Of a stretch of DNA of 57,392 bases, positions 23,981 through 43,151 are shown in pieces. A model generated the notes under the pieces. It saw nothing but the letters and a program-made list of their open reading frames with translations. It did no database searches and had not been told where the DNA came from. Position 1 is the stretch's first letter, and each line of letters opens with the position of its first letter. The stretch covers positions 1-57,392 of the forward strand of contig JABIFY010000145.1 of NCBI GenBank assembly GCA_018650465.1. Reading direction: 5' to 3'. A program made the translations under genes and the position numbers. This stretch comes from Alphaproteobacteria bacterium. GTDB lineage: Bacteria; Pseudomonadota; Alphaproteobacteria; UBA2966.

Positions 23981-24048
23981 TTTAATCCCGCTGAACAGTT
24001 TTTAGTCTTTGCCCGAAATGGGTGAATTTTTTCAACAGAGGTTATCGA

Positions 24049-26010
24049 ATGCAAATCCTTGAGCTTCTTGGTTCGACCGCATCAACGGCAAAAGTCCAGC
24101 AAGTGGACCTGACGTCGCAGAAAGATGCGTTCGCCAAACATCTGAATGACGTCATGAGTCACAGGGACAATATGCGTACTGAAGAGGCAAAGGTACGTGC
24201 TCTAAAGCAGGATGACAGAAGTGAAGCGCGTCCGGATCGTATTGATCGACCTGAGCATGAAGAACAGGTTGAAGCAGCCGACCCCGAAGAAGCGCCTGAC
24301 TCAGACACCCAGGAAGAAAATGCTGTCAGCACTAAGGGAAACGAGAAATCTACAGATGCCTCAGGTTCTGAAACCAAGGTGGCAACACCAGGTATGGAGA
24401 TCGTAAAAAGCCTTGAAGCTGGAATGAAGCCTGACGTCGCGCTTGAAGCTACGATGAAATCTGAAATTTCGGAAGACACAATTATCGGCCATGCGGCATC
24501 AGACGTCCTTGAGGAAGTTGTCGCTGAAGACGCCTCCGGCATCGTCGCTGCCCTGGACATGGCAAACAAGGCAAGCCAGGCAGCAGCCATTAATAGTAAT
24601 GCAAAAGCTGCCGACTCTGAAAAAATGAGCGAAAAAGCAGGGCCATTCAAGTCCGCCGCCAATGCCGATACTCTTGATCCGGCAGCAGCAGCCGTGACGC
24701 CAGACGATGCAATCAATAAAGTTTCAGGTCTCGCGATGGAAGTCGCAGCCAAGACCGATATGGCCGACCTCAGCGATGATGTACAGGTTATTTCCCAGGC
24801 CGCCGTTCAAAGCAGCACACAGCAAACAAATGTGCCTGCAGTAAAAGGCCAGGAACGCGCTCAGTCTGTGGAAAAAGGAAAAGTTGAGCAAGTCGTCGCT
24901 GAATCACCTTTGATCAAGGATGCCAAAATTGCAGTTGGCCCTGATCCCCGACTGACGGAAATGCAGATTGCCCAGGCCCTGGTTGAGGAAGCCGCCGCAG
25001 AAAAGATACATGCCCAGTTTATGGTCGGCACCGGTCCCACCAATAATATGGCTGCCTTTAATCAGGTCGCTTCAGTTCAAAGTAGTGGAGCGCTTGAAAC
25101 GGCTGCCCCAGCAGGGCTACAGGCAGCGCAAAACAAACCGACAGGTCCTGTTCGTCTTCCGGAAAACGAGGGCATGGGACAATTGGCTGATGCAGTGGCA
25201 AAACCCGAAGCAGCCCCAAAGCCAGCAATTCAGATTGCCCAACCAGTACCCGGTCAAAATGGCCTCGCCAATATGGACGGTAGTGCCCAAGCTTCCATGA
25301 GTGAGCGGGCCGCCAATACTCTGGCACAATTAACCGCCCAGGCCACACAAGCCACACAAGCCGCACAAGGCCAAAATGGCAGCAAACCATCACAAGCTGC
25401 TTTGCCAGCTGCTGTTGCGGGTGCGGAAGCCGTCGGTAACGCCATGAATAATTCAGCCACGACAGCCCCCTCCGCTGCAATCGCAGAAGTCGGCGCACCA
25501 ACTGGCACACAAATGGCCAACGCCGCCAAACCGGCGACACCGCCACCACCTCCAACACAGCAACCACCACAGGCGCAGGTGGCCATGCACATCGCCAAAG
25601 CAATGCAAAATGGCGCCGATAAAATCAGCATCCGACTTAATCCGTCAGAGCTCGGTCGGGTCGACATCAAGCTTGAGATTGCACGAGATGGTGCTGTTAC
25701 GGCAAGCGTGACCGTCGAGCGTCCAGAAACTCTGGAACTTCTTAAAGGCGACGCCCGTTCGCTCGAACGCGCCCTCGCCAATGCCGGACTGGACCCGGAT
25801 TCCGATAAATTGAGTTTCAATCTACGGGACCAGAATAACAGTGGTAACAGCTTCGCCAAAAATGCCGACGGAGATGGCAAAGGTACCGGTCAAAGTCAGG
25901 ACGGGAACAATTCAGCCAATGGGGAAGAAAATGACCTGGATGTCGAGGCCTTGTTGGCCGAGGCCAGAGCGAGTGCAAGTCATGATCGCGCCCTTGATAT
26001 TAACGTCTAA
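24049..26010 (+). CDS. fliK: Flagellar hook-length control protein FliK
   Basis: Secreted ruler that sets hook length and switches export specificity. From the ATG at 24049 (AGAGG upstream; an upstream GTG at 24022 is less likely) the product is 653 aa. Residues up to about 500 are low-complexity, rich in A, Q, E, T and P, as in other FliK rulers, and include a run of prolines before PTQQPPQAQ. The C-terminal Flg_hook domain (about 505-600) reads ISIRLNPSELGRVDIKLEIA, then ERALANAGLD. First gene after the sigma-54 promoter; flgD follows after 48 bases. Confidence 0.9.
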   Translation: MQILELLGSTASTAKVQQVDLTSQKDAFAKHLNDVMSHRDNMRTEEAKVRALKQDDRSEARPDRIDRPEHEEQVEAADPEEAPDSDTQEENAVSTKGNEKSTDASGSETKVATPGMEIVKSLEAGMKPDVALEATMKSEISEDTIIGHAASDVLEEVVAEDASGIVAALDMANKASQAAAINSNAKAADSEKMSEKAGPFKSAANADTLDPAAAAVTPDDAINKVSGLAMEVAAKTDMADLSDDVQVISQAAVQSSTQQTNVPAVKGQERAQSVEKGKVEQVVAESPLIKDAKIAVGPDPRLTEMQIAQALVEEAAAEKIHAQFMVGTGPTNNMAAFNQVASVQSSGALETAAPAGLQAAQNKPTGPVRLPENEGMGQLADAVAKPEAAPKPAIQIAQPVPGQNGLANMDGSAQASMSERAANTLAQLTAQATQATQAAQGQNGSKPSQAALPAAVAGAEAVGNAMNNSATTAPSAAIAEVGAPTGTQMANAAKPATPPPPPTQQPPQAQVAMHIAKAMQNGADKISIRLNPSELGRVDIKLEIARDGAVTASVTVERPETLELLKGDARSLERALANAGLDPDSDKLSFNLRDQNNSGNSFAKNADGDGKGTGQSQDGNNSANGEENDLDVEALLAEARASASHDRALDINV

Positions 26011-33580: not shown

Positions 33581-34981
33581 ATGAGACTCATGATCATTGG
33601 ATCACTTGATGGTCAAATCGGTGCTGCCAGCAAGATCGCCATGCAGCGCGGTGCCAAAGTTGCCCATGTACCAGACCTGGATGCTGGCCTGACAGCCCTG
33701 CGCTCTGGCCAGGGCGCTGATCTGGTCATGATGGATGCAACGCTGGATGTCGGCGGTTTTATTCGCAGTCTTGATCAGGAACGTATCAGTATTCCTGTTG
33801 TGGCCTGCGGTGTGGGCACTGACGCGTCCATTGCCGTCTCTGCCATCAAGGCCGGGGCCAAGGAATATATCCCCCTGCCGCCTGAGCCCGAACTGATTGC
33901 AGCCGTCTTACAGGCCGTGACTGAAGAGACCAAAACCATGGTCTTCCGCGACGATGCCATGGCCAAAGTCATACGCCTTGCCGATCAGGTCGCCCCCAGT
34001 GATGCCAGCATCCTGATCACCGGCGAGTCCGGAACCGGTAAAGAAGTCATGGCGCGCTACCTGCATTCAAAAAGTGCACGTGCCGGCAAGCCGTTTATTT
34101 CGATCAACTGCGCCGCTATTCCAGAAAATTTGCTTGAATCTGAACTTTTTGGTCATGAAAAAGGCGCCTTCACGGGTGCTGCCACCCGTCGGGTAGGCAA
34201 GTTTGAAGAAGCCAATGGCGGAACCCTGCTGCTGGACGAAATCAGTGAAATGGACACCCGTCTGCAGGCCAAACTTCTGCGTGCCGTTCAGGAACGTGAG
34301 ATCGACCGGGTTGGTGGTTCCAAGCCTGTTTCCGTTGACATCCGTGTGCTGGCAACAAGTAACCGAAACCTTCTGGAGGAAGTCAAAAAAGGCAACTTCC
34401 GCGAGGATCTGTTATTTCGCCTGAATGTGGTCAGTCTGGAATTGCCGCCACTGCGTGATCGGCCTATGGACCTTGAAGCCCTGTCCCAGCACTTCATCGA
34501 AAAATATTCCGAAGCAAATGGTGTAGCCCTTCGTCCTCTGGCGAGCACGACCCAGCAAGCCATTCGCAGTTATGGCTGGCCTGGCAATGTCCGTGAACTT
34601 GAAAATACCATGCACCGCGCCGTGCTGTTGGCTAACGGGCCCGAGATTGAAATCGACGCCATAATGTTGCCGGACGGCAGTAAACCTGGTGACCACGCTG
34701 GCGCCACAGATAGTCCTTCTGCAATACCCATGGAAGACACCACAGGGCAAATTCAGGATAGTGCTGCCCTCATGGGGGCGTCTTCTCTTGTGGGCCGAAC
34801 GGTTGCCGATGTGGAGCGCGACCTGATCATCAATACCCTTACTCATTGTCTTGGCAACAGAACCCACGCGGCAACAATTTTGGGTATTTCGATCCGCACC
34901 TTGCGCAACAAACTGAAACTATATTCAGACGACGGCACCGCCGTGCCGGCTCCTGGCGAACATAATGCTGCGCCTGCCTGA
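33581..34981 (+). CDS. flbD: Sigma-54-dependent flagellar regulator FlbD
   Basis: Transcription activator of the NtrC family, 466 aa. A receiver-like domain (1-115) lacks the usual N-terminal acidic pair (it reads MIIGSLD) but keeps Asp52. The AAA+ domain has Walker A GESGTGKE (148-155) and the sigma-54 contact loop GAFTGA (195-200), and the end carries a Fis-type helix-turn-helix (ATILGISIRTLRNKLK). CGGGAG precedes the ATG. Two sigma-54 promoters in this window, before flgK and fliK, are its natural targets. Confidence 0.92.
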   Translation: MRLMIIGSLDGQIGAASKIAMQRGAKVAHVPDLDAGLTALRSGQGADLVMMDATLDVGGFIRSLDQERISIPVVACGVGTDASIAVSAIKAGAKEYIPLPPEPELIAAVLQAVTEETKTMVFRDDAMAKVIRLADQVAPSDASILITGESGTGKEVMARYLHSKSARAGKPFISINCAAIPENLLESELFGHEKGAFTGAATRRVGKFEEANGGTLLLDEISEMDTRLQAKLLRAVQEREIDRVGGSKPVSVDIRVLATSNRNLLEEVKKGNFREDLLFRLNVVSLELPPLRDRPMDLEALSQHFIEKYSEANGVALRPLASTTQQAIRSYGWPGNVRELENTMHRAVLLANGPEIEIDAIMLPDGSKPGDHAGATDSPSAIPMEDTTGQIQDSAALMGASSLVGRTVADVERDLIINTLTHCLGNRTHAATILGISIRTLRNKLKLYSDDGTAVPAPGEHNAAPA

Positions 34982-35062: not shown

Positions 35063-37153
35063 ATGTCTGAACAAGCGACAACACCAGACGGCGAAGCTGT
35101 CGGAATGTTTTCGTTCATGCGGGGGGATATTGCCTTTGCCCTGGGCATTATGGCGATCCTCACTGTTCTGTTCATCCCGCTGCCACCCTGGCTGCTGGAT
35201 ATATCCTTTTCGATATCCATCACCTTTTCTGTCCTGATTTTGATGACCGCCTTGTTTATCGCCAAGCCCCTGGAATTCAGTGCTTTTCCGACCGTTCTGC
35301 TAATAGCAACGCTGTTGCGGCTTTCCCTGAACGTTGCCTCGACCCGCCTGATCCTGTCTGAAGGGCACCACGGGGGTGCCGCCGCCGGTCGGGTCATTCA
35401 GGCATTTGGTGACTTTGTTATCAGTGGTAACTTTATTATCGGTATCGTGGTCTTCGGTATTCTGGTGATTGTGAACTTTGTCGTCATCACAAAGGGTTCA
35501 CAACGTATCGCGGAAGTCGCTGCCCGCTTCACCCTGGATGCCATGCCCGGTAAACAGATGGCAATTGATGCCGACCTTAGTTCTGGTTTGGTTGATGAGA
35601 ACGAAGCCCGGGACCGGCGCAAGAATCTGGAAGACGAAAGCAACTTCTTTGGTGCCATGGATGGTGCGTCCAAGTTCGTTCGTGGTGATGCCGTTGCCGG
35701 GCTGCTGATTACTTTCATTAACATCATCGGTGGCATCATCATTGGTGTGGCTCAGAAAGATATGAGCTTCGGCGGCGCCAGTGAATCGTATACACTGCTA
35801 ACAGTTGGCGACGGACTGGTCTCCCAGATTCCCGCTTTGATCGTCTCCATTGCTGCCGGTATTTTGGTCTCCAAGGCGGGTGTATCAGGCACCGCTGATA
35901 AAGCTATCTTTTCCCAGTTGGGCGGTTACCCAAAAGCACTGGGCGTCAGTTCTTTCTTGATGATCGGCCTTGCCATCATTCCGAATATGCCGATGTTCCC
36001 CTTCCTTCTGTTATCCGGCATAACGGGCACGCTTGCATTTGTGGCCATGCAAAATAATGAACGGGCTGTAATTGAGGCAGATGAAGCGGAACGTGAACAG
36101 ATAGATTCCACCCCTGTCGAAGAACCCATTTCAACAGCATTGGCCATCGATGATTTGCGGCTGGAACTGGGCTATGGCCTACTGCCCTTGATCAATGATG
36201 AGCGTGGATACAAACTGACAGATCAGATCAAAGCCCTGCGCCGTCAGTTGGCGAGTGAGATGGGCTTTGTTATGCCATCAGTCCGTATTCTGGATAACAT
36301 GCAATTGCCGGCAAACGGCTATGTGATCCGTGTCAAGGAAATTGAAAGTGGCGCCGGCGAAGTCCGTCCAGGTCAGTTGCTGGTCATGGACCCCAGGGGC
36401 GAGCCGATTACCCTGCCCGGCGAAGAAACCACCGAACCAACTTTTGGTCTGCCGGCGACTTGGGTCGACGAAGCCCATCGCGAAGAAGCTTCTTTCCGGG
36501 GCTATACAGTTGTCGATCCATCCACCGTCGTTAGCACACATTTGACTGAAACCATCAAGGAAAACATGTCGGACCTGTTGTCCTATGCGGAAACCCAGAA
36601 ACTGCTGGATGATCTTCCCAAGGAGCAGCAAAAGCTTATAGGCGATATTATTCCGGCACAGATTTCCACGTCCGGCGTCCAGCGCATTTTGCAAAATCTG
36701 TTGAACGAACGCATTTCCATTCGTGACCTGCCAACTGTTCTTGAAGGCGTTGCCGAAGCCACAGCCTTTACCCAGAACTTCACACAAGTAACCGAACATG
36801 TTCGCTCGCGTCTGGCCCGACAGATCAGCAACAGCCAGGTTTCAGCAGGCGGGTATATCCCGTTAATTACCCTGTCACCTGAATGGGAACAGGCCTTCGC
36901 CGAATCCATCATTGTTCAGGGTGACGACCGTCAGCTTGCCATGGCGCCGATGAAACTACAGGAATTTATTACCAAGGTTCGCCAGGTTTTTGAACGCACC
37001 CAAAATGAAGGCGAAGCCGCTGTTTTGTTGACAAGTCCGGGTATCCGGCCATTTGTTCGCTCTATCATCGAGCGCTTCCGTCCGGCGACTGTTGTGATGT
37101 CGCAAAATGAGATTCACCCCAAGGCGAAAATTCGCACCCTTGGGCAGGTCTAG
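35063..37153 (+). CDS. flhA: Flagellar export apparatus protein FlhA
   Basis: Inner-membrane component of the flagellar type III export gate, 696 aa. The N-terminal half carries seven or eight membrane segments and family motifs (LLIATLLRLSLNVASTRLIL, FVVITKGSQRIAEVAARFTLDAMPGKQMAID in parts, GDGLVSQIPAL); the C-terminal half is the cytoplasmic docking domain (LGYGLLPLI, YAETQKLLDDL). It follows flbD and precedes flhF by 10 bases, so flhA, flhF, flhG and the next gene are one run. Confidence 0.96.
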   Translation: MSEQATTPDGEAVGMFSFMRGDIAFALGIMAILTVLFIPLPPWLLDISFSISITFSVLILMTALFIAKPLEFSAFPTVLLIATLLRLSLNVASTRLILSEGHHGGAAAGRVIQAFGDFVISGNFIIGIVVFGILVIVNFVVITKGSQRIAEVAARFTLDAMPGKQMAIDADLSSGLVDENEARDRRKNLEDESNFFGAMDGASKFVRGDAVAGLLITFINIIGGIIIGVAQKDMSFGGASESYTLLTVGDGLVSQIPALIVSIAAGILVSKAGVSGTADKAIFSQLGGYPKALGVSSFLMIGLAIIPNMPMFPFLLLSGITGTLAFVAMQNNERAVIEADEAEREQIDSTPVEEPISTALAIDDLRLELGYGLLPLINDERGYKLTDQIKALRRQLASEMGFVMPSVRILDNMQLPANGYVIRVKEIESGAGEVRPGQLLVMDPRGEPITLPGEETTEPTFGLPATWVDEAHREEASFRGYTVVDPSTVVSTHLTETIKENMSDLLSYAETQKLLDDLPKEQQKLIGDIIPAQISTSGVQRILQNLLNERISIRDLPTVLEGVAEATAFTQNFTQVTEHVRSRLARQISNSQVSAGGYIPLITLSPEWEQAFAESIIVQGDDRQLAMAPMKLQEFITKVRQVFERTQNEGEAAVLLTSPGIRPFVRSIIERFRPATVVMSQNEIHPKAKIRTLGQV

Positions 37154-37163
37154 GAACTGAGCA

Positions 37164-38153
37164 ATGCGCCTCAAGACCTTCTCAGCCGCAACCATGCCAG
37201 AGGCCATGGCAGAAGTGCGTCAGGTCCTGGGGCGGGACGCTGTTATCGTTTCAACATTTGAGGGCCGACGTGGAACAGGTGTCCAGGTTACAGCCGCCCT
37301 TGAAGAAGCCTTGCCGCAACCAGAAGAAATTCAGGAACAAGCCCCGCATCCAGGTGCCGACGGCAGCGCTAACCCGTTGGGCGAAGCCTTGCAGTTTCAT
37401 GGCTTACCCGAGCGTCTAGCGTCACGGCTGATCAGCCTGGCCCAATCTATGGACGTTGAAGACCCTGAAGCCCAGCTGGCTGGTGCCCTGGATGCCGGAT
37501 TTGACTTTGCCCCTTTGAATTTGATGCCGCGCCAGCCTGTCATGCTGGTTGGTCAACCCGGTGCCGGTAAAACCGTGACCGTGGCCAAACTGGCGGCCAG
37601 GGCGGTCATGGCTGGCAAAAAGGTTCGGGTTATTACGACAGATACCATTCGTGCCGGAGGTGTTGCACAATTGCGTGGCTTCACCGACATTCTGAATACC
37701 GAGCTGGAAAAAGCTGATGCGCCGGATATCTTGCGCAATGCCATATCCTATGCCGGAGAAGATGAACTAGTCCTGATCGACAGCCCAGGCACCAATCCAT
37801 ACAACAGCATCGAAATCCGGGACCTGAAGCGCTTTTTGGATATTGAAGGCATCGAGCCCGTTCTGGTTATTGCGGCCGGAGGCGATGTCGCTGAATCCAG
37901 TGATATTGCGTCAGCCTGGCGGCCTTTGGGTATTCGGCGTGTGATCTTTACCAGACTGGACGCGACGCGTCGTTATGGCGCGATTATCGCCGCCGCGGAC
38001 GCCACTGGATTTATCCTCGGCGATGTCAGCCTGTCACCTTATGTCGCGGAAGGCATGAAAGTTCTTAACCCTGTCACCATGGCGCGGCTGTTGCTGCGCC
38101 AGGAAACCCTTACGACCACCTTGTCCGATAACGAGGAGAAAGCAGCACAATGA
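37164..38153 (+). CDS. flhF: Flagellar GTPase FlhF
   Basis: SRP-type GTPase that sets the site and number of polar flagella, 329 aa. MRLKTFSAATMPEAMAEVRQ is the typical start; the P-loop GQPGAGKT is at 130-137, followed by the RVITTDTIRAGGVAQLRGF block, DSPGTNPYN and TRLDATRRYG. The region between the start and the G domain is short for the family. Its stop overlaps the flhG start by 4 bases. Confidence 0.92.
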   Translation: MRLKTFSAATMPEAMAEVRQVLGRDAVIVSTFEGRRGTGVQVTAALEEALPQPEEIQEQAPHPGADGSANPLGEALQFHGLPERLASRLISLAQSMDVEDPEAQLAGALDAGFDFAPLNLMPRQPVMLVGQPGAGKTVTVAKLAARAVMAGKKVRVITTDTIRAGGVAQLRGFTDILNTELEKADAPDILRNAISYAGEDELVLIDSPGTNPYNSIEIRDLKRFLDIEGIEPVLVIAAGGDVAESSDIASAWRPLGIRRVIFTRLDATRRYGAIIAAADATGFILGDVSLSPYVAEGMKVLNPVTMARLLLRQETLTTTLSDNEEKAAQ

Positions 38154-38941
38154 CCACCGATATCAGTTCAGCAGCGGAACAGGCTCCTGCGCCACGCGGT
38201 CGCAACATTGTCACTGTCGCCTCAGGTAAAGGTGGTGTCGGCAAAACGTGGCTTTCTGTCACCCTGACCCACGCCATTGCAGCCAGAAACCGCAAGGCCC
38301 TGTTGTTTGACGGTGATTTGGGTCTGGCCAATGTGGACATTCAGTTAGGCATTATGCCCAAATATGACCTGGGCGGTGTCGTTGCAGGACGCATCGATCT
38401 GAAGTCCGCCATTACCAAATACCCTGAAGGCAATTTCGATATTCTGGCGGGTAAATCCGGGTCCGGCGCTCTCGCCTTGCTGTCGGGACCCCGCGTTTCG
38501 GAACTGCGCGAAGACCTGCTGGATCTTGCGGACCAATATGATCGGGTAATTGTAGATCTGGGTGCCGGTGTGGAAAGCGGTGTGAGAGCCCTTGTTGGTA
38601 ACAACGGCACGATACTTGTCGTCACCAACGAAGAGCCAACAGCCATCACTGACGCTTATGCCTTCATCAAGGTCACGGCCATGAAACATCCAGGGGCGGA
38701 CCTGCGCATTGTGGTCAACCAGGTCAGTGGTGCCCAGGATGGCAACCGTACCTATGGTGCCTTGAAAAAAGCCTGTGAAAGTTTCCTGAAAATCTCACCG
38801 CCACTTGCGGGAATGATCCGTCGCGATGACAAGGTCCGGGATTCGATTCGGCATCAGACCTCCATCCTGCTCCGTCATCCCGGCAGCAAGGCTGCTGATG
38901 ATGTGGAAGCCCTCGCTGCCCGGCTTTTATCTGAACCATGA
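38150..38941 (+). CDS. flhG: Flagellar number regulator FlhG (MinD-like ATPase)
   Basis: ParA/MinD-type ATPase of 263 aa that works with FlhF to limit flagellum number. The deviant Walker A is KGGVGKT (27-33), the switch region reads LLFDGDLGLANVDIQLG, and VIVDLGAGVESGVRA follows. The start overlaps the flhF stop by 4 bases and the stop overlaps the next start by 4, so the three genes are translationally coupled. A C-terminal amphipathic helix typical of the family is not obvious. Confidence 0.9.
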   Translation: MTTDISSAAEQAPAPRGRNIVTVASGKGGVGKTWLSVTLTHAIAARNRKALLFDGDLGLANVDIQLGIMPKYDLGGVVAGRIDLKSAITKYPEGNFDILAGKSGSGALALLSGPRVSELREDLLDLADQYDRVIVDLGAGVESGVRALVGNNGTILVVTNEEPTAITDAYAFIKVTAMKHPGADLRIVVNQVSGAQDGNRTYGALKKACESFLKISPPLAGMIRRDDKVRDSIRHQTSILLRHPGSKAADDVEALAARLLSEP

Positions 38942-40959
38942 CCAACGTTCCACCAGCCACACCACCGCAACCGACCGGTGCGCTAACAGCCTCTCCCAAT
39001 CCTCAGGGAGGCCAGACGCCGCAGCAGCAAAATGCGGGTCAGCGGCCAGCTGGTGGTCAAGTCCCTAAAGAAGCGCCGCCACCCTCCTCACCCGCGGTTA
39101 CCATCGCGGCCTCTATTGCAGGGTTGCGCGAAGGCATGCGTTTCAAAGGCACCATGACGGGTGCAGATGCCAATGGGCTGCCAGTGCTGCGAACACCCAA
39201 CGGTACGTTTATCCTGTCCCAGGCGCTGGAACAGCTTGTCCTGAACGGCGAGGTTGATATTGAAATACGTGTTGCCGGCAATAAAATAAGTGCGCTGATT
39301 CTCTCGATCGGCGGCAGGGTCCAGCATCCTCCGAAAGAAATTGGTCTGACCATGACCAGCGTTAGCGGGGAAAACCTTACTGGAAAAACTCTGGCTGGCG
39401 GCTTGGCTGCTGGCCTGGTCCCGCGGGGTGGCCAGACAGCGACTTTGAACATTGGCACACAGCTGACAGCCAATATTCTGAGTTCGCCGACGAAAGCCAG
39501 TGCAAGTTCAACACTGGTTCCCGGTGGTACACTGATCCTGAAAATATCTAACGTCGCATTAACCCTCCCCAAGGGCAGCGTTTCATCAGTGCCCGCCAGT
39601 ACGGCCGTATCTCAGTCTGGCACGACAGAAACAGCATCTTCAACATTGGCCAACGACATCAAAACCCAGCTGGCAGCTGGCAAATCGAATGCGATGTCCA
39701 ACCAGGGTGTTCTTGGCGGCAACGCCAGTCGTCTGGCGGGGACAACAGTTGCCAATCCCACAGTGAATGCCCCTGTTGCGCCTCTGGCAAATCAGGCAAC
39801 AACTCAGGCCACTGTCCTGTCTTCCGCCCAGGCACCAGGTTCTCCCCCTGGCACGACGACATCGCCAAATCCATCTCTAACGATCAACCAAGGGACCAAT
39901 TCTGCCCTGTTGGCGAGTGGAAATGCCGCTACTTCGCCGACGACCGCGCCGTTATCTCCAAGTCCTTCTCTCAGTGCAGCGATAAGTCAAACGGCATTGC
40001 TGTCCCAGCAAGATACCGACAATGCCCCGCCAGCAACCGCAGCAACTGTTGCAGCAACAAAGACCATTCAGGGCGAAGTCATTGGCCCACATCGTGATGG
40101 TGGCTTGTTGGTCAGAACGCCTGCGGGTGATATTTCCTTGATGACCCGTGCAGTTCTACCCAAAGGCAGCCAATTGACCTTTGAAACGGTTGCCACCAGG
40201 GCACCGGAATCAGTGCAGCGCCCGATAGCGCAGGGCCAACCCGTCCCCATGGATGGGGGCGTGGTCGCACCGGAAACCAAGGCAGCCATCAAGGCTTTCG
40301 CAAACGAATGGCCAGCCATGAAGGAAGTTATGACTGCCCTCCAGGCCGCCAGCCCGGCAGTGGCGCAAAATATGATCGCATCAATACTGCCCGGCGCAAA
40401 TTCGTCACTGGCAAGTTCAATATTGTTGTTTCTGTCAGCGATCAGAGGTGGCGACATGAAAGGCTGGCTTGGAGTAGATGCGACAGCCTTGCTGGAGCGC
40501 GGCGGGCATGACGATTTGCTGAACCGGCTAACGGCAGATGCGGGCCAAATGGGCCGCGCCAGTGAAACACCGGGACAAGGTGATTGGCGCGCCCTGCCCT
40601 TTCCACTGTTTGATGGCAGTGATTTGCAACAAATATGGGCCTTTGTCCGGGAGCATCGCCGTTCCGGAGATATGGCTGACAAAAAGGCACTTAGATTTGT
40701 CGTGGAACTGGACCTGACGGCGTTGGGCGGTATGCAACTGGATGGTTTGATTCAGGATAAGCAGTTTGATCTGATTGTTCGCAACAGCCGCGCCTTGCCA
40801 ACAAATATTCGACAGGACCTGTCCGGATTATTTGAAAGTTCCGTTGAGGCCACCGGGTTCAGCGGCAGTATCATTTTTCAGTCGGACACAGCGTGGCCTG
40901 TTTCTCCGTTCCGTGAAGCCCAACAGGAAGCCGCAGGACATGGCGAAATCGTTGCCTGA
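38938..40959 (+). CDS. Second FliK-like (Flg_hook-like) protein
   Basis: A 673-aa protein translated in coupling with flhG. It has a P/Q/A-rich start, a beta-rich segment (about 65-230), a low-complexity S/T/A/P/Q middle (about 230-380), and a C-terminal part whose last 110 residues (RFVVELDLTALGGMQLDG, NIRQDLSGLFESSVEATGFS) resemble the Flg_hook domain of FliK. The true fliK is 13 kb away, so this could be a second ruler-like or export-switch protein. The resemblance is pattern-based, and a flagellar role follows mostly from context. Confidence 0.6.
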   Translation: MTNVPPATPPQPTGALTASPNPQGGQTPQQQNAGQRPAGGQVPKEAPPPSSPAVTIAASIAGLREGMRFKGTMTGADANGLPVLRTPNGTFILSQALEQLVLNGEVDIEIRVAGNKISALILSIGGRVQHPPKEIGLTMTSVSGENLTGKTLAGGLAAGLVPRGGQTATLNIGTQLTANILSSPTKASASSTLVPGGTLILKISNVALTLPKGSVSSVPASTAVSQSGTTETASSTLANDIKTQLAAGKSNAMSNQGVLGGNASRLAGTTVANPTVNAPVAPLANQATTQATVLSSAQAPGSPPGTTTSPNPSLTINQGTNSALLASGNAATSPTTAPLSPSPSLSAAISQTALLSQQDTDNAPPATAATVAATKTIQGEVIGPHRDGGLLVRTPAGDISLMTRAVLPKGSQLTFETVATRAPESVQRPIAQGQPVPMDGGVVAPETKAAIKAFANEWPAMKEVMTALQAASPAVAQNMIASILPGANSSLASSILLFLSAIRGGDMKGWLGVDATALLERGGHDDLLNRLTADAGQMGRASETPGQGDWRALPFPLFDGSDLQQIWAFVREHRRSGDMADKKALRFVVELDLTALGGMQLDGLIQDKQFDLIVRNSRALPTNIRQDLSGLFESSVEATGFSGSIIFQSDTAWPVSPFREAQQEAAGHGEIVA

Positions 40960-40996: not shown

Positions 40997-41410
40997 ATGT
41001 CTGAATCCAGCCCAAACTCCGTTGAGCGACGAAACCTGATCTCCGCCCATGCCAACACTTCAATGGCGGTGGATTTTGTTACAACATTTTCCGGACAAAT
41101 CTCCCACAGCAACGGCCCCGAAATAGCGACGATAAAAATTGATGTTCGCTACGTGCCGGACAAGCTTGTCATGGATATGACTCCGCTACCGGACTATCTG
41201 ATGCGCCTTAATGACCTTGCACATTATCCTCTGGAAAAGCTTGCGGGGGTGATCCTGGAAGACCTCAGCAATGAGCTGGTGCCTCGCTGGTTGCACGTCA
41301 CGGCAGCAATCGGTGATTCAGCCAATCCAATTTGTCACAGTGTTTCCTTTGAAGACCGTCAACCCAATTGGGACAACCCCACATTGCTGGCGCGACTGAC
41401 ATCAATTTAG
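40997..41410 (+). CDS. QueF-like T-fold protein without QueF catalytic residues
   Basis: A 137-aa protein that I align to QueF (7-cyano-7-deazaguanine reductase) by order of short matches: an F-x-G/T site, PEIATIKIDVRYVPDK against the QueF PDFATI...Y-PD stretch, L-x-x-YL, then ILEDL and PRWLHV near the end. The QueF catalytic Cys (in CPxTGQPD) and the ESK motif are replaced (SHSNGPE and DMTPLP). It sits 37 bases after the FliK-like gene and its stop overlaps the fliJ stop by 4 bases. A T-fold or binding role is suggested; function is unknown. Confidence 0.45.
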   Translation: MSESSPNSVERRNLISAHANTSMAVDFVTTFSGQISHSNGPEIATIKIDVRYVPDKLVMDMTPLPDYLMRLNDLAHYPLEKLAGVILEDLSNELVPRWLHVTAAIGDSANPICHSVSFEDRQPNWDNPTLLARLTSI

Positions 41411-41829
41411 TTCTGCGGATTGTTGCGGCGAAACATGTTCAGTCCCATTTCATCCAGTTCGATCTGGGCCACACGATCTTCCTCTTTGCGTTGACGTTCT
41501 TTTGCCCGTTCCAAAGCGGTTTCGTATTTTTTGACTTCTTGATAGGCATGATGAACTTCGTCAGTGGCGGCGTTGACCGCTTCCTGCGCTTCTTCAATGG
41601 ACTGCCGCAAAACCCGACGCCGTTCGATAACGGTGACAGCATAGTGCCCATAGGTTTGTGCGATTTCGGGCGACGTCGCCGCTGCGGCCTGGTTCAGAAT
41701 CAATTGCTCCTCAAAATGTGCAATCTCTCGGTAAAAGCCTGCTCTCAGGTCTTCAAGGTCCGCCAATTGTCGCCGCTTTTCATCCAGCGTCCAGGAATTA
41801 ACCCGGATCAGTGTTTCCAACCCCTTCAT
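41407..41829 (-). CDS. fliJ: Flagellar export chaperone FliJ
   Basis: Small coiled-coil protein of 140 aa that works with FliI and FlhA in export. Nearly all of the chain is helical and rich in E, K, R and Q (for example EEAQEAVNAATDEVHHAYQE), as in FliJ. The start overlaps the fliI stop by 4 bases, and its stop overlaps the convergent gene's stop by 4. No other family fits this place and length. Confidence 0.85.
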   Translation of the reverse strand: MKGLETLIRVNSWTLDEKRRQLADLEDLRAGFYREIAHFEEQLILNQAAAATSPEIAQTYGHYAVTVIERRRVLRQSIEEAQEAVNAATDEVHHAYQEVKKYETALERAKERQRKEEDRVAQIELDEMGLNMFRRNNPQN

Positions 41830-43151
41830 TCGTCAAAGCTACCTTCCAGCAGGTCATCAAGACCAGCGTAACAAGAGGCAAGATCGCCCCGCTCGTGCAT
41901 ATCCTGGGTCAGGAATTCCTCGATACGGTCCCGATATTCAATCGCCAGATCTACCTTAGGGTCTGAACCTTGCCGATAGGCACCCAAGCGGATCATTTCT
42001 GACATGTCTTCGTAGGTCGCAACCATTTTCTTGGCCTGATTAACAATCCGGTTTTCGTCAGCGGTATTACAATCCGGCATGGTTCTGGACAGGCTGCGCA
42101 AGACATTCACGGGTGGATATCGTCCCCGCTCGGCAATTGACCGATCCAGTACGATATGGCCATCGAGAATACCGCGAACAGCATCTGCGACAGGTTCATT
42201 ATGGTCATCACCTTCGACCAGGACGGTAAACAGACCGGTGATCGAGCCGATCCCGGTTCCCGGCCCTGCCCGCTCCAACAGCTTGGGCAACTCGGCAAAT
42301 ACAGTTGGTGTATAACCTTTGCTGGCTGGTGGCTCCCCCCCCGTCAGGCCGATTTCACGCTGGGCCATGGCAAAGCGGGTCACACTATCCATCAGGCAGA
42401 GCACCTGCTTTTCCTGATCGCGAAGATATTCCGACAAGGTCAAAGTCAAGTACGCGGCCTGTCTGCGCATCAAAGCAGATTCGTCTGATGTGGCGACAAC
42501 GACAACTGAACGGGCCAAGCCATCTTCGCCCAGGTCATCCTGAATGAACTCCTGGACCTCGCGACCACGTTCGCCAACCAGGCCGATAACGTTGACATCC
42601 GCATCCGTGTAACGTGCCAGCATGGACAACAAAACAGATTTACCAATGCCTGATCCGGCAAAGATGCCCATGCGTTGGCCCTGACAACATGTCAAAAATG
42701 TATTGATGACCCGGACACCCAGATCCAGTTTGGCGCCGGTACGGTTACGTGACGCAGCAGGTGGCGGTTCTGAGCGAACGCGATAGCCCACAGGGCCCCG
42801 CAACAAGGGTGGTCCGCCATCCAGTGGCTCTCCGACAGCATTAACAACTCGTCCGAGCCACGAGATATCAGGGTAGATGACGGAATCATGTTCTGCGACC
42901 AGCACCCGACAGCCAAGGCCAACCCCATCCAGACTGCCATAGGGCATAAACAGGGCGCGGTCATTGCGAAAGCCAACAACTTCGCAGGCCACTTCCTCGT
43001 CCCCGCGGATCAGTATATGGCAGCGTGAACCTATGCTGACGCAACGTTGTAAGCCGGACACTTCGACAAGAAGTCCCTGAATGCCGACGACGCGGCCGTA
43101 ACGCTCATATTCCTGAAGTGAATTCAGTTCCGCAAGAACGCTTTTCAACAC
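41826..43151 (-). CDS. fliI: Flagellum-specific ATP synthase FliI
   Basis: ATPase that energises flagellar export, 441 aa. Walker A GSGIGKS is at 166-172, Walker B lies in VLCLMDSVTRFAMAQRE, and GLVGERGREVQEFIQDDL, ASKGYTPTVFAELPKLLERAGP and GSITGLFTVLVEGDD fit the family. The start is GTG with GGGAG upstream. It is the first gene of a two-gene fliI-fliJ unit, divergent from ctrA across a 291-base gap. Confidence 0.95.
   Translation of the reverse strand: MLKSVLAELNSLQEYERYGRVVGIQGLLVEVSGLQRCVSIGSRCHILIRGDEEVACEVVGFRNDRALFMPYGSLDGVGLGCRVLVAEHDSVIYPDISWLGRVVNAVGEPLDGGPPLLRGPVGYRVRSEPPPAASRNRTGAKLDLGVRVINTFLTCCQGQRMGIFAGSGIGKSVLLSMLARYTDADVNVIGLVGERGREVQEFIQDDLGEDGLARSVVVVATSDESALMRRQAAYLTLTLSEYLRDQEKQVLCLMDSVTRFAMAQREIGLTGGEPPASKGYTPTVFAELPKLLERAGPGTGIGSITGLFTVLVEGDDHNEPVADAVRGILDGHIVLDRSIAERGRYPPVNVLRSLSRTMPDCNTADENRIVNQAKKMVATYEDMSEMIRLGAYRQGSDPKVDLAIEYRDRIEEFLTQDMHERGDLASCYAGLDDLLEGSFDE

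Follow-up and report, generated by a model that had tools for sequence, protein, structure and literature searches.

QFL, a QueF-related T-fold protein encoded in alphaproteobacterial flagellar gene clusters

Introduction

Unimodular QueF (preQ1 synthase; PF14489/TIGR03139) is a T-fold nitrile reductase of tRNA modification that uses NADPH to reduce preQ0. Its described hallmarks are the residues Cys55, Asp62 and Glu97 together with an NADPH motif, E(S/L)K(S/A)hK, and Glu97 is given as the substrate anchor (PMC5372742). The archaeosine synthase QueF-L (QueF-Like; structures 5jyx and 5k0p) is a QueF relative of the same fold with another job; 5jyx is titled as a covalent thioimide intermediate, which indicates that QueF-L keeps a catalytic residue. 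GTP cyclohydrolase I (FolE) also has a T-fold. The placement of flagella is described as depending on FlhF, FlhG and polar landmarks, and a DQAxxLR helix of FlhG, described as conserved, as the element that activates FlhF (review PMC12826062).

In this study, a stretch of 57,392 nucleotides (hereafter the window) from the genome of an alphaproteobacterium (GCA_018650465.1, contig JABIFY010000145.1) was analyzed, following up an earlier note on a small protein encoded among its flagellar genes, here referred to as QFL. QFL represents a real, conserved and unannotated flagellar-cluster family whose fold is surprising for its place. Among the matches listed in a search of open-licence full texts, no QueF-like or T-fold flagellar protein was found.

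QFL has the T-fold, the YVPD-type strand, the helix pair, the anchor Glu and one tyrosine (Y67, at Y85 of QueF) in common with unimodular QueF, whereas it scores under both curated cut-offs for that enzyme, is without the catalytic Cys and E(S/L)K(S/A)hK, and has a C-terminal EDRQPxWxN motif and flagellar neighbors of its own. Its likeness to QueF-L is that of a second QueF relative with another job on the same fold (VIA Z 12.6), but QFL has no Cys at the place of the covalent intermediate of 5jyx. FolE proteins are the next structural matches after QueF, although QFL has no FolE Pfam match and the genome contains a separate FolE gene (named from its sequence). Finally, QFL is encoded beside the FlhF/FlhG placement switch in nearly all testable loci; it belongs to neither of these families and would be an added, lineage-specific part. 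The reading that we favor, with moderate confidence, is that QFL, a T-fold protein, carries out no QueF reaction and serves part of the alphaproteobacteria as a dedicated accessory of the FlhA/FlhF/FlhG module.

Results and Discussion

Relationship and Fold of QFL

40997–41410, + strand: QFL, T-fold protein of 137 aa with an ATG start, similar to QueF but lacking its catalytic Cys and NADPH motif

Only QueF models matched QFL in the Pfam and NCBIfam scans, and no other family was reported by either. PF14489 was matched at E 7e-5 with 23.4 bits, below its cut-off of 27.3, and the QueF-II model TIGR03139 at E 2.1e-7 with 30.8 bits, below its equivalog cut-off of 86.9. A phmmer search of the PDB with QFL returned three QueF chains at E 0.11–0.12. 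Named genomes were then scanned with a QFL alignment of 11 rows and without regard to neighboring genes, which gave 121 confirmed relatives (some with titles that read only "Proteobacteria") and 80 loci that were kept. The window QFL (P0001) and 52 of these loci form the 53-row alignment A4, whose rows are referred to below as the 53 relatives; five loci without a script-found start, the wrongly cut L066 and 22 usable loci, mostly near-copies, were omitted.

In a search with the profile of the 53 relatives, chains of QueF from B. subtilis came up at E 2.4e-6, and hhalign paired the profile with the true QueF of a congener (genome G003) at E 2e-5 and probability 77. At E <= 0.1, TIGR03139 matches 52 of the 53 relatives and PF14489 matches 48, which, together with low dN/dS, indicates that the likeness to QueF is more than chance. 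Over 11 close QFL pairs (12 were taken and one of unequal length was left out), dN/dS was 0.025–0.454, with eight pairs below 0.1 and three at 0.27–0.45, and the computation shows purifying selection on QFL. In a tree of 27 QFL sequences drawn from the rows of A4, 13 QueF and six FolE sequences, QFL forms one clade (support 96/92) beside QueF (86/87), and FolE is separate. QFL is thus shown by computation to be a distant QueF relative that shares ancestry with unimodular QueF, and the relationship to QueF that the earlier note had read from the 137-aa product is borne out by both family models and by the searches with the profile of its relatives.

The T-fold that had been claimed for QFL was recovered as well, so that neither of the outcomes named beforehand as refuting, a predicted structure lacking this fold or a profile match to a different family, was obtained. 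The AlphaFold2 model built on the 53-row alignment (mean pLDDT 92.1, pTM 0.85) has two strands, two helices and two strands in this order, i.e., the beta-beta-alpha-alpha-beta-beta domain of T-fold proteins, with a short additional helix at each end. Its top match in Foldseek, and the best among solved structures, is B. subtilis QueF (4fgc_B, E 3.1e-8, TM 0.70), followed by GTP cyclohydrolase I and then QueF-Like. VIA-align superposed the model on QueF 4f8b_A with Z 14.1 and rmsd 3.4 over 125 aligned residues. The VIA rows shown comprise QueF, GTP cyclohydrolase, QueF-L, dihydroneopterin-type (DHNA) and uricase folds, and the lack of other folds among these rows carries no weight.

Flagellar Gene Neighborhood

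33581–34981, + strand: flbD, sigma-54 flagellar regulator
35063–37153, + strand: flhA
37164–38153, + strand: flhF, SRP-type GTPase
38150–38941, + strand: flhG/fleN, MinD-like ATPase, no DQAxxLR seen at the N-terminus
38938–40959, + strand: X673, 673-aa protein without annotation, encoded immediately before QFL, with a possible (weakly matched) FliK/YscP-type switch domain
41407–41829, − strand: fliJ, convergent with QFL
41826–43151, − strand: fliI

The tail-to-tail arrangement with fliJ that the earlier note had pointed out is found in the window, where the two genes overlap by 4 nt (41407–41410). The note had also placed QFL after the flhF-flhG run, and QFL does lie downstream of this run but not directly, with X673 intervening. 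In other genomes, the flhA-flhF-flhG and X673 context is conserved but fliJ is not constant. The 80 loci include Thalassospira, Azospirillum, Terasakiella, Magnetovibrio, Caenispirillum, Telmatospirillum, Hwanghaeella, Pacificispira and many MAGs, and for each neighbor only loci with sufficient flank were scored. X673 ends within 400 bp upstream of QFL in 75 of 79 loci, and in 66 of 68 if up to 1.5 kb is allowed. Of the testable loci, 60 of 62 have FlhG no farther than 4 kb upstream, and 58 of 60 have FlhA no farther than 5.5 kb upstream. A convergent fliJ is at most 800 bp away in 32 of 75 loci and at most 7 kb away in 47 of 64. QFL is the last gene of the flhA-flhF-flhG-X673 run, and its link to flagellar genes is strong.

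Independent annotations of A. lipoferum 4B and A. thermophilum read flhA, GTPase, MinD/ParA, hypothetical (X673) and hypothetical (QFL). On Azospirillum plasmids, unrelated genes of the opposite strand follow QFL. Among 12 plasmid records with QFL, three annotate it, as a hypothetical protein; in the remaining nine, either no gene is given at this place or annotation is missing (the table being incomplete). In L073, L077 and other Thalassospira loci, fliJ-fliI is about 6 kb from QFL or unseen in the flank, and flhA-flhF-flhG-X673-QFL is intact. A scan of promoters and terminators yielded six promoter-like sites (5.1 expected) and 14 terminator-like sites (9.1 expected), and nothing from it was used.

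The Upstream Neighbor X673

The C-terminal ~240 aa of X673 are conserved in synteny. X673 has no Pfam or NCBIfam match, the Flg_hook domain (PF02120) included, and its C-terminal profile found no match in the PDB. Comparison by hhalign gave E 0.11 against the FliK type, which is within noise, and nothing against the FliK of the window. VIA matched the C-terminal model (pLDDT 82.9) best to 5cuk, the switch domain of PscP (Z 5.2, rmsd 3.2, 75 aligned), and FliK 2rrl reaches Z 4.1; both are within noise (Z < 8). In Foldseek, PscP stands at rank 10 (E 0.065, probability 0.99). The identification of X673 as FliK was rejected, there being no FliK domain in X673 and a Flg_hook protein (FliK) elsewhere in the window (24022–26010); what stays is a weak likeness in structure to PscP/FliK.

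Distances between the X673 stop and the QFL start were measured in 72 loci and, after the miscut L066 had been set aside, evaluated in 71, with start codons chosen by script; the overlap is exactly 4 nt in 16 of the 71 loci and of another length in seven. Fused X673-QFL frames, considered from open-frame lengths, were dismissed because the coordinates place the two genes in different frames. In the Thalassospira loci L081 and L108, about 1 kb (1058 and 1059 bp) separates the two genes.

It might be that QFL mainly assists X673 as its partner or chaperone and acts in export specificity or hook length and not with FlhF/FlhG; X673 would then perhaps be a second switch protein of FliK/YscP type. 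The close and frequent adjacency of the two genes, their 4-nt overlaps and the leading structural match to PscP, with FliK behind it, point in this direction. However, the likeness of X673 to FliK is within noise in every comparison above, and QFL is kept without a detected X673 in six of the eight genomes in which X673 is unseen or weak beside it; in five of these six (L032, L044, L045, L048 and L051), QFL directly follows flhG. X673 is therefore a frequent and not an obligatory partner of QFL, and we consider a role confined mainly to X673 rather unlikely. An accessory function of QFL in the FlhA/FlhF/FlhG module remains the favored reading.

Distribution of QFL

The QFL profile matched 113 of 385 genomes of the class, of which 34 were counted as QFL genomes by a score of at least 39 bits and a reach to profile position 118 or beyond, with hand sorting; QueF matches end at about position 94 of the 131 in the profile. 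Two borderline cases (G302 and a short fragment in G021) and 77 QueF-type matches, recognized by their coordinates and not read singly, were left out. Of the 34 QFL genomes, 32 have FlhA, compared with 188 of the 351 others (p 7.7e-7, phylogeny ignored), and in the two FlhA-less QFL genomes (G073 and G135) fliI and fliJ lie beside QFL (L030 and L037). Among the 220 FlhA-positive genomes, an FlhF match was obtained in 25 of 32 with QFL versus 62 of 188 without it (p 1.9e-6, phylogeny ignored; the threshold of 1e-25 misses the FlhF of G242 and G121, and a few matches are probably FtsY or Ffh by their coordinates).

QFL is not a core flagellar part, since it went undetected in 188 of the 220 FlhA-positive genomes, and the 62 QFL-less genomes with an FlhF match indicate that FlhF in general needs no QFL. 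In the family of the window genome, QFL occurs only in its own genus (two of seven genomes), and some families are mixed, containing genomes with and without it (f53, f58). Across 388 genomes of the phylum, no full-length match was seen outside Alphaproteobacteria, and the only full-length, high-scoring matches were four from this class. The six top matches from outside the class that were read (L162–L167) are true QueF with CPxTGQPD and ELKSLK. In the sets searched, QFL is seen only in Alphaproteobacteria.

Residues Kept and Lost

41147–41161, + strand: RYVPD segment, residues 51–55, similar in QueF, with invariant P54 and D55
41234–41236, + strand: Glu80, aligned with the substrate anchor Glu97 of B. 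subtilis QueF
41270–41290, + strand: NELVPRW segment, residues 92–98, with invariant R97
41351–41377, + strand: EDRQPNWDN, the QFL C-terminal motif, residues 119–127, with invariant D120, P123 and W125

The NADPH motif of QueF is present in none of the 53 relatives, and the QFL-QueF profile alignment has no Cys at the place of the catalytic Cys55 of B. subtilis QueF, in agreement with the loss of the catalytic Cys and the ESK motif that had been reported. Residues 17–63 contain no Cys in 37 of the 53 relatives and a Cys at scattered positions in the other 16. The QueF loop that bears the catalytic Cys and Asp62 aligns with a turn of variable length in QFL, and the RGG segment of QueF is missing, as judged by eye. 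One amendment to this picture is that the substrate-anchoring Glu is kept, as E80, in all 53 relatives and, by visual count, in 26 of 30 sequences from a broader unnamed set. E80 was assigned to Glu97 with the help of chain 5udg, an E97Q variant that shows Q in the same column.

D26, P54, D55, E80, D89, R97, D120, P123 and W125 are identical in 53 of 53 relatives, Y67 (52/53) stands at Y85 of QueF in the alignment, and the C-terminal consensus EDRQPxWxN is almost invariant. By the features examined at the sequence level, QFL is not a QueF enzyme and appears to have lost the QueF reaction. An enzyme of different T-fold chemistry that is merely co-expressed with flagellar genes could account for the invariant charged residues (D26, D55, E80, D89, R97 and D120), which include the substrate-anchoring Glu of QueF, but the tabulated columns hold no invariant Cys or His (H114 in 47/53), and QFL keeps its place among flagellar genes and tends to occur in genomes that have FlhA, so that we regard such an enzyme as very improbable in comparison with a flagellar accessory.

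QFL and Queuosine Synthesis

A true QueF over the cut-off was found in 24 of the 34 QFL genomes, and QFL is therefore no replacement for QueF; this candidate was rejected also for its lost catalytic residues. The congener G003 carries a full QueF in addition to QFL. In the window genome (G000, 98.9% complete), no QueF reached the cut-off. Tgt is present in both genomes and QueC over the cut-off in neither, and Tgt without QueC perhaps reflects salvage of a queuosine precursor. That QFL converts preQ0 to preQ1 in the window genome, as Tgt without another QueF over the cut-off might suggest, we dismiss as extremely improbable in view of the absent Cys and NADPH motif, the true QueF that accompanies QFL in G003 and in most QFL genomes, and the signs of salvage in both congeners.

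Proposed Role

With the QueF reaction set aside, QFL is very probably a flagellar accessory without QueF activity. Its genomic context and distribution suggest that it probably has a role in building or placing flagella. In the mechanism that we propose, a protein of common ancestry with unimodular QueF would have lost the QueF reaction and would assemble into a T-fold ring, whose old substrate pocket may now take a guanine-type ligand or a partner peptide. This ring would be an adaptor or regulator of FlhF/FlhG, and so of the number and placement of flagella, in many cases with X673 as a partner.

The single parts of this proposal are held less firmly than the accessory role. Action on or with FlhF/FlhG is a serious but tentative possibility, and continued binding of a purine-type ligand by the pocket is conceivable at slightly lower confidence; action mainly through X673 and export seems somewhat doubtful. 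The most specific version, a ring that senses a guanine ligand and tunes the FlhF GTPase/FlhG ATPase switch, or the export gate via X673, so that nucleotide state would bear on flagellar number and position, is speculative and on balance unlikely.

QFL, whose gene accompanies flhA-flhF-flhG in Azospirillum, Thalassospira, Terasakiella, Magnetovibrio and their relatives, would be a new lineage-specific flagellar part. It would also exemplify a T-fold enzyme lineage that has taken on a structural or regulatory role. Some hosts can be cultured, which makes the proposal directly testable. Genes for QFL should not be given the name QueF.

The FlhG Activating Helix

The FlhF-activating helix bears on how QFL might work with FlhG. 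DQAxxLR was found in none of the 63 FlhG proteins encoded beside QFL, in none of the 19 readable FlhG of QFL-plus genomes (20 regions fetched, one without a found FlhG) and in none of the 18 readable FlhG of QFL-minus alphaproteobacteria (20 regions fetched, two without a found FlhG); the set of 63 and the two smaller sets overlap in organism and are not independent, and the strictness of the motif pattern differs slightly between the set of 63, these two sets and the positive control below. A substitution of QFL for the missing helix is unsupported, the helix being absent in the class with or without QFL.

Alphaproteobacterial FlhG as sampled here (38150–38941 of the window; L053–L132; L171–L210) is without the DQAxxLR enhancer helix that the review calls conserved. 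As a positive control, the motif was recovered in four of five non-alphaproteobacterial FlhG, with FleN of P. aeruginosa as the exception.
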